DNA from: Fidelibacterota bacterium
GTDB taxonomy: Bacteria; Fidelibacterota; Marinisomatia; SCGC-AAA003-L08; TS1B11
Direction: 5' to 3'
NCBI GenBank assembly: GCA_004124295.1
Contig: SCKI01000005.1
Span: 1-64,000 of the forward strand
DNA length: 64,000 nt
Below the pieces are notes generated by a model. It had not been told where the DNA came from and did not search any database. It was given only the letters and a program-made list of their open reading frames with translations. This document shows, piece after piece, positions 8,744 to 11,535 of the stretch (its first letter is position 1; each line of letters begins with the position of its first letter). The translations under genes and the position numbers were made by a program.

Positions 8744-9967
<1,224 letters not shown>

Positions 9968-9999
9968 GGCGCCGGTCTATCGGCAAAGGCCGGTTGTGC

Positions 10000-10028
10000 T
10001 TGACGGTGAAGATCGGGCAGACTAACTT
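10000..10028 (+). promoter_or_regulatory. Sigma-70-type promoter of the structured RNA
   Basis: TTGACG at 10000-10005 and TAACTT at 10023-10028 are separated by exactly 17 bases. Transcription would start near 10035, just before the paired elements of the RNA. No coding sequence follows on this strand, so the promoter appears to serve a non-coding transcript. The same -10 hexamer occurs in the exopolysaccharide promoter at 41815. Confidence 0.65.
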
Positions 10029-10034
10029 GAGCGT

Positions 10035-10229
10035 TGAGGCAATGATTTGATATTGCCCGTGAGTCGCAGACTAACCCAGATCCTTCAAATACGACTCAGC
10101 AGGGCGCCATATTCGGCTAACGCAGCGTAGGCCTTTCCTCTCGGGGATCAAGGAAACCTGCCTTAGTTGAGAGGGGCCCACCGTTCTTAAAAAACGGGAT
10201 CTGGGTTAAGAGCGCTCACGGGCATTTTT
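10035..10229 (+). ncRNA. Structured small RNA, about 195 nt (6S-like candidate)
   Basis: The region between convergent genes holds long-range complementarity typical of a structured RNA. The outer helix pairs 10054-10063 (TGCCCGTGAG) with 10215-10224 perfectly and is followed by TTTTTATTT, so it would also terminate transcription. After an 8/6-base internal loop a perfect 12-bp helix pairs 10072-10083 with 10197-10208. Inside are a helix 10129-10138/10152-10159 with a CC bulge and a small CCGTT/AACGG hairpin at 10181-10197. A 6-bp hairpin near the 5' end (GGCAAT 10038-10043 with ATTGCC 10052-10057) competes with the outer helix. Size, rod shape and a GGGGCCCACC segment near the 3' side recall 6S RNA, but no family match is proven; a MITE-like inverted-repeat element is the alternative. 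Confidence 0.6.
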
Positions 10230-10239
10230 ATTTGCCCCG

Positions 10240-11535
10240 CTACGGCCCCGGGGCCGGGTCCTGCGCTAGACGATGCTGGATGGCCCGAATCGCCTCATCC
10301 GGGCCGCTTACCGACAACACCGTAACATCCTCTTCGTAGCTCCGGCTGTGCACATCGAGGCTGTCGTATATCTGCCCCAGCAGGCCCGATTTGCGGCTCG
10401 GCACGCGCAGCTCCACATGGCTGAAACGGGCCGCCTGGGCCTCCAGGATGGCCTGCTCCACCTGCTCCAGACGCAGCCGCTGCCGGGCGGAGATGAGGAT
10501 GGCTCCGGGAAATTTCTCTTTCAACCGGTTGACGGCCCGTGATTCGGCCAGCGCATCTATCTTGTTGAGGATGGTGATGATGGGCACCTTGTCGGCGCCC
10601 AGTTCGCGGAGCACCTGCCGGGTGGTCAGATCGTGCTCCACCACCTGGGGTGAGGAGGCATCCAGCACATTCAGCAGCAGGTCGGCCTCGGTCACTTCGG
10701 CCAGCGTGGCCCTGAACGAGGCCACCAGGTGATGCGGCAGTTTGCGGATGAAGCCGACGGTATCGCTGAGGATAATGGAGCCGCTGCCCGGCAGGTCGAG
10801 CTTCCGGGTGGTGCTGTCGAGGGTGGCAAAAAGCCGGTCCTCGACCAGCTGCCCGGCGCCGGTGAGGGCGTTCATCAAGGTGGACTTGCCGGCGTTGGTG
10901 TAGCCCACCAGCACCACCCGGTAAGCCGATTTCCGCTGGCTCCGCTGGGTGCGCCGTTCGGCGGCGATCCGTTCCAGTTCCTTCTGCAGATGGGCGATGT
11001 GCCGGCGGATCATCCGGCGGTCCACCTCAATCTGCGCTTCCCCCATGCCCCCGCGGGTACCGATGCCACCCATCTGCCGCTCCAGGTGCGTCCACTGGCG
11101 GGTCAGCCGGGGCAGCAGGTATTGGAGCCGGGCCAGTTCCACCTGGGTTTTGGCCTCCCGGCTCCGGGCCCGGCGGCCGAAGATGTCCAGGATCAGGCCG
11201 CTGCGGTCAATGACCTTGATGTTGTCCCCCGCCAGGCGCTGCAGATTTTTCTGTTGGGTAGCGCCCAGGTCATCATCGAAAATGACCAGACTGCAGCCCA
11301 GTTCCGCGGCCTGGGCCATCAGCTGTTCGGCCTTTCCCTTGCCGATGTAGGTGGCTCCATCGGGCCGGTCCCGGCGCTGGATCAGCCGGCCGGCTTCCTC
11401 GGCCCCCGCTGTATCGGCCAGCTGGGCCAGCTCGTCCAGGTGCTCATCCAGGGTGGCCGATTTATCGGCCCGCCGCCCGACCCCCACCAGGAGGGCCCGT
11501 TCCCTAGGCTGGTCTTCGGGGACTGCTGTATACAT
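10240..11535 (-). CDS. hflX: GTPase HflX
   Basis: A 431-residue HflX GTPase, a ribosome-associated factor that splits stalled or hibernating 70S ribosomes. The N-terminal HflX domain (ERALLVGVG, DGATYIGKGKAEQL, VIFDDDLGATQQKNL, VIDRSGLILDIFGRRA) is followed by a coiled-coil stretch with GIGTRGGMGEAQIEVDRR and then the G domain: G1 GYTNAGKST, G2 region FATLDSTTRKL, G3 DTVGFI, G4 NKID. A short C-terminal domain follows. The gene overlaps the 3' end of the upstream VWA protein gene by 32 bases, so translation is probably coupled; no separate Shine-Dalgarno is seen before ATG 11535. Confidence 0.95.
   Translation of the reverse strand: MYTAVPEDQPRERALLVGVGRRADKSATLDEHLDELAQLADTAGAEEAGRLIQRRDRPDGATYIGKGKAEQLMAQAAELGCSLVIFDDDLGATQQKNLQRLAGDNIKVIDRSGLILDIFGRRARSREAKTQVELARLQYLLPRLTRQWTHLERQMGGIGTRGGMGEAQIEVDRRMIRRHIAHLQKELERIAAERRTQRSQRKSAYRVVLVGYTNAGKSTLMNALTGAGQLVEDRLFATLDSTTRKLDLPGSGSIILSDTVGFIRKLPHHLVASFRATLAEVTEADLLLNVLDASSPQVVEHDLTTRQVLRELGADKVPIITILNKIDALAESRAVNRLKEKFPGAILISARQRLRLEQVEQAILEAQAARFSHVELRVPSRKSGLLGQIYDSLDVHSRSYEEDVTVLSVSGPDEAIRAIQHRLAQDPAPGP

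Follow-up and report, generated by a model that had tools for sequence, protein, structure and literature searches.

A divergent candidate 6S RNA gene beside hflX in a Neomarinimicrobiota genome

The window analyzed here, a stretch of 64,000 nt from the genome of a bacterium of the uncultured marine phylum Neomarinimicrobiota, contains a short gap between two genes that do converge, as the initial annotation had stated, namely a gltP-like gene on the forward strand and hflX on the reverse strand. For this gap, a free-standing RNA gene with its own promoter and terminator had been proposed, either a 6S RNA or a member of a new family. 6S RNA, which restrains RNA polymerase by mimicking an open promoter, regulates transcription globally, and it is usually encoded by one free-standing gene per genome. 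The features of the locus are listed below, where RF00013 is the Rfam model of 6S RNA, R1 is a model built from the window's own taxonomic family only, and R2 is a phylum-wide model of 44 sequences.

8744-9967, forward strand: gltP-like dicarboxylate/glutamate symporter gene, the upstream neighbor (10 of 11 family members have it there, and outside the family it is often replaced)
10000-10005, forward strand: -35 element TTGACG of the predicted 6S promoter (9 of 11 family members have TTGAC, and the distance to the -10 element is always 17 bp)
10023-10028, forward strand: -10 element TAACTT (family consensus TAAnTT(g); conserved in 11 of 11, each with a spacer of exactly 17 bp)
10035-10053, forward strand: predicted 5' leader, carrying GGCAAT, with a start site near 10035 as judged from the promoter position
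10051-10228, forward strand: predicted 6S RNA body (RF00013 positions 1-187 of 187, 33.2 bits, E 2.6e-5; R1 168.5 bits and R2 142.6 bits, both models having been built including this sequence)
10054-10067, forward strand: closing helix, 5' arm, pairing with 10212-10224 (10+3 bp) in the predicted fold, with compensatory change in all 14 modeled pairs
10072-10082, forward strand: inner (downstream, or P2) helix, 5' arm, 11 bp with 10198-10208 in the predicted fold, with compensatory change in 7 of 8 modeled pairs; together with the next bases, the putative template strand of the product RNA
10083-10101, forward strand: central bubble, 5' side, with a product RNA predicted to start opposite C10086 and to read 5'-GAAGGAUCUGGGUU (from the position relative to P2 and the rule of GG at 4/5, PMC8414754)
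10102-10179, forward strand: apical arm with a terminal hairpin (predicted fold; covariation in helices 3-6)
10181-10197, forward strand: small hairpin CCGTT/AACGG in the 3' part of the central bubble (28 of 44 homologues are predicted to form it in the free RNA; its pairs covary partly, 79% being paired)
10198-10208, forward strand: inner (P2) helix, 3' arm (predicted fold)
10212-10224, forward strand: closing helix, 3' arm (predicted fold)
10225-10233, forward strand: T-tract TTTTTATTT directly 3' of the closing helix
10240-11535, reverse strand: hflX, convergent downstream neighbor and conserved syntenic marker (convergent in 46 of 51 loci)

Folding of the forward strand yields -89 kcal/mol against -68.4 +/- 4.6 for shuffled sequences (z of -4.4), with none of 200 shuffles as good, and the long-range helices described initially are borne out as the closing and inner helices. 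The opposite strand likewise folds far better than its shuffles, since the rod has near-symmetrical arms; the orientation is given instead by the promoter, the T-tract, and the model scores, R1 reaching 168.5 bits on the forward strand and 46.3 on the reverse. Regarding length, the RNA measures 178 nt by the model and about 195-200 nt from the predicted start to the T-tract, which is within the 6S range of about 160-200 nt.

A covariation analysis of relatives, which the initial annotation had named as a check, gives a very strong signal. In an alignment of 44 sequences, which was fitted to the model and hence leans towards the structure, 92.8% of the cells hold standard pairs versus 70.4% after shuffling, and compensatory change is found in 46 of 55 pairs. 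Also, the covariation score is 0.639 versus 0.235 and the compensatory cells are 557 versus 162, no shuffle attaining any of these values, while controls with a slid structure are 37-53% paired. Moreover, an independent, plain MAFFT alignment of another family (f3), folded alone, returns the same rod, in which 22 pairs are compensated, and the alignment of the window's family alone shows 12. Thus, covariation supports the rod shape expected of a 6S RNA, with its closing stem, a central bubble, and an apical arm, and the central bubble of the window RNA lies in register with what is required of one.

The promoter was correctly recognized from the start, both elements being present with the proposed spacing, and the spacer is exactly 17 bp in all 11 members of the window's family. 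In these members, the closing helix begins about 14-18 nt past the inferred start site. The family-wide -10 element is TAAnTT(g) rather than TATAAT, which perhaps corresponds to a preference of the primary sigma factor of the phylum. In favor of the 6S reading, an RpoD-type sigma factor is matched in the window's genome with an E value of 1.8e-69, yet under the curated cut-off. As a separate observation, a CTTTnnAAA-like motif recurs in the leaders of many homologues, immediately ahead of the closing helix (e.g. L048, L067, and L055), and is possibly a 5' processing site. At the other end, the T-tract noted initially is indeed present past the closing helix, and both together probably form an intrinsic terminator. 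At least 7 T in the 12 nt past the closing helix are found in 26 of 51 loci, whereas 7.5% of random 12-mers reach this number. T is also abundant in the 12 nt ahead of the helix (mean 5.8 vs 6.0), so that only the T-tract combined with a stable helix argues for a terminator.

An Rfam search of the whole window at the gathering threshold returns no match. A sensitive scan of 9950-10260 aligns RF00013 from end to end at 33.2 bits, which is below the curated cut-off of 46.4 bits, and this is why a default scan finds nothing; this gathering score is a curated detection cut-off and not a biological feature. In the same scan of 9950-10260, no plausible family besides 6S was detected, and a match to PtaRNA1 (E 6.7) was set aside as due to chance. 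RF00013 run against the complete genome of this bacterium gave no match, probably through filter loss, given that the local scan recovers the RNA. When RF00013 was searched in 60 relatives, single matches were found in 25 of them, full-length or nearly so and mostly subthreshold, with one relative of the same class (G052, 46.7 bits) above the cut-off. Moreover, the family-only model R1 independently recovers distant loci found with RF00013 (65 bits in G052 and 61 bits in G042), so that two lines of evidence meet on the same loci.

With R2, the RNA is found in 183 of 245 Neomarinimicrobiota genomes, which represent 78 of 84 genera, almost always as a single copy, and the window's genome holds one full copy only. 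Among the genomes with two matches, G168 carries them on two contigs, the RNA copies being 97% identical, in G009 the second match is partial and reaches a stretch of N, and G224 and G226 are the remaining ones. The second gltP-6S locus of G009 (L181, G009:C1:968800-969900) runs into the N block of a single-contig genome, which suggests that part of the assembly is composite or withheld. The neighborhood is conserved too, with hflX lying 0-285 nt from the 3' end of the RNA in 46 of 51 loci (one overlapping by a few nt), a count in which 8 of the 46 were fetched via hflX itself and are therefore biased, the loci found by the RNA alone giving 38 of 43. At least one of the five loci that lack a convergent hflX is a contig ending just past the RNA. 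Outside the phylum, no 6S RNA beside hflX was seen in 70 loci with R2 (a few of them labeled Marinimicrobia), nor in 20 loci with Rfam.

Taken together, the full-length subthreshold match to RF00013, the phylum-wide covariation, the conserved synteny, and the conserved promoter support the 6S identity, and with it the free-standing gene that had been proposed; together with the single copy, they lead us to consider that the locus is very probably the 6S RNA (ssrS) gene of this bacterium, predicted to encode an RNA polymerase-holding rod. It is a divergent 6S RNA, missed by default annotation, yet no new kind of RNA. It shares with the 6S RNA (SsrS) of RF00013 the rod, the closing stem, the central bubble, the apical arm, the length, the full-length alignment, and a 5' bubble predicted to hold, beside the inner helix, the template of the product RNA; it differs from it in the score below the cut-off, in an apparent terminator of its own made through the closing helix, and in the adjoining hflX.

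Other explanations of the locus have to be weighed against this one. The structure could be a bidirectional terminator or a 3' UTR structure common to gltP and hflX, without a promoter of its own, as its position between convergent genes and the T-tract past the helix would suggest. However, the RNA has its own conserved promoter, it stays in place in many relatives where gltP is replaced, and a conserved bubble and an apical arm would be superfluous for a terminator, which leaves this explanation extremely improbable. Near-symmetrical arms, together with a reverse strand that folds too and obtains a weak R1 score, would be compatible with the remnant of a MITE or another repeat with inverted arms. 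The many dispersed copies expected of such an element were looked for, but one copy per genome is present, located in the same hflX-adjoining place across the phylum and with compensatory changes around a conserved bubble; copy number and synteny refute this origin, and the probability left to it is negligible. Finally, the RNA could belong to a new rod-shaped family, binding RNA polymerase or otherwise regulatory and merely 6S-like, in the manner of Ms1, because its score is under the Rfam cut-off. The scores of 24 of the 25 relatives with a match are under it too, which counts against the 6S reading. Nonetheless, RF00013 aligns over the whole of 10051-10228 with the bubble in register and a relative from the class clears the cut-off, so the new family considered initially is not needed. 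Moreover, Ms1 of actinobacteria, likewise a rod-shaped RNA of the polymerase-binding kind, is about 300 nt long, has extra 5' and 3' hairpins, and binds the core enzyme (PMC9130861), whereas the window RNA, at about 178-195 nt, has the length of a 6S RNA, differs from Ms1 in length and fold, and gives no match to it. A new family is thus given only a slim chance.

The initial annotation had also proposed that a competing 5' hairpin, GGCAAT/ATTGCC, could turn the closing helix on and off, which would add to the 6S reading rather than exclude it. The hairpin itself exists (10038-10043/10052-10057), being predicted in incomplete transcripts only (-7.2 kcal/mol in the first 32 nt), and it is shared by the window and the one other genus member searched. 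However, the hairpin is missing from 9 of 11 family members, and in the predicted folding it gives way as soon as the closing helix has fully formed, making a switch very unlikely. Given its genus-only occurrence (2 of 11) and its formation in incomplete transcripts only, the hairpin probably arises incidentally from the local sequence; at most, it would be a transient folding guard.

As to function, the sequence is consistent with transcription from the housekeeping-type promoter at 10000-10028, which would give an RNA of about 190-200 nt ending at the T-tract past the closing helix. This RNA would fold into the rod, whose central bubble would stand in for an open promoter. If it acts like its counterparts in E. 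coli and B. subtilis, it would associate with the RNA polymerase holoenzyme that contains the primary sigma factor and restrain the enzyme in slow growth. When nucleotides return, the polymerase would copy the 5' side of the bubble from C10086 into a short product RNA, predicted as 5'-GAAGGAUCUG. Known product RNAs start in the 5' bubble with GG at positions 4/5 or 5/6 and an A just upstream (PMC8414754), and as a sequence pattern only, the predicted one has G at position 1, GG at 4/5, and A10087 just upstream; some families of the phylum lack this GG. The product RNA would then peel the inner helix open, so that the RNA refolds and the enzyme is released. The analysis itself establishes the homology, the covarying structure, the conserved promoter, the synteny, and the single copy, and from these we infer transcription, polymerase binding, product RNA synthesis, and release.

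For the release step, the 14-nt template was blocked in silico and the RNA was refolded. In this case, the window RNA forms a 7-bp bubble-collapse helix, GACUCAG/CUGGGUU, whereas the relatives G004 and G008 form an extended 9-bp 3' hairpin, and these two predicted refoldings match the two release types described for 6S RNAs (PMC8876501). The possible collapse helix would correspond to that of B. subtilis 6S-1 RNA (PMC8876501), with which the window RNA also shares a small 3'-bubble hairpin already present in the free RNA, although the collapse helix is absent in most of the phylum. On the other hand, the hairpin that the 3' bubble is predicted to make with the released P2 strand in G004 and G008 resembles that of E. 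coli 6S RNA, and the window RNA forms none. When the distal bubble was shuffled, 7 pairs were reached by 14 of 150 shuffles in the window, and in four relatives 66-92 of 150 shuffles were as good. The collapse helix is thus weakly above chance in the window, and release by collapse is put forward tentatively; as a conserved feature it was rejected, being no better than shuffles in most members.

A further result concerns the genome-reduced family f6. In its 24 genomes of 0.4-1.0 Mb (G041, G045, G047, G051, G055, and G092-G110), eight of which are at least 90% complete, no significant R2 match was obtained, and no RNA was detectable in the 12 f6 hflX loci examined. This apparent absence, the most interesting side observation of this work, may reflect loss in the lineage or extreme divergence; hflX itself is kept in 23 of the 24 genomes. 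A wider scenario can be drawn, in which release switched between close relatives, the window genome and certain sister genera using a collapse helix and genus g4, which belongs to the same family, an E. coli-type 3' hairpin, and in which f6 lost the 6S RNA and kept hflX, but we regard it as unlikely.

In the literature searched, no paper mentioning both 6S RNA and Marinimicrobia was found. A 6S RNA beside hflX provides a marker for annotation and for recognition in ocean metatranscriptomes. Moreover, the 6S RNAs of the phylum form a natural set in which mechanisms of release could be compared and the loss of 6S from streamlined genomes could be tested.

Finally, two loci of genus g4 (L018 and L062) display, past the apical arm, a hairpin of 8-9 bp, CTTCACAG/CTGTGAAG, that joins the 3' bubble to the 3' strand of the inner helix. 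This hairpin, which the rest of the family does not have, resembles the release hairpin of E. coli 6S RNA.
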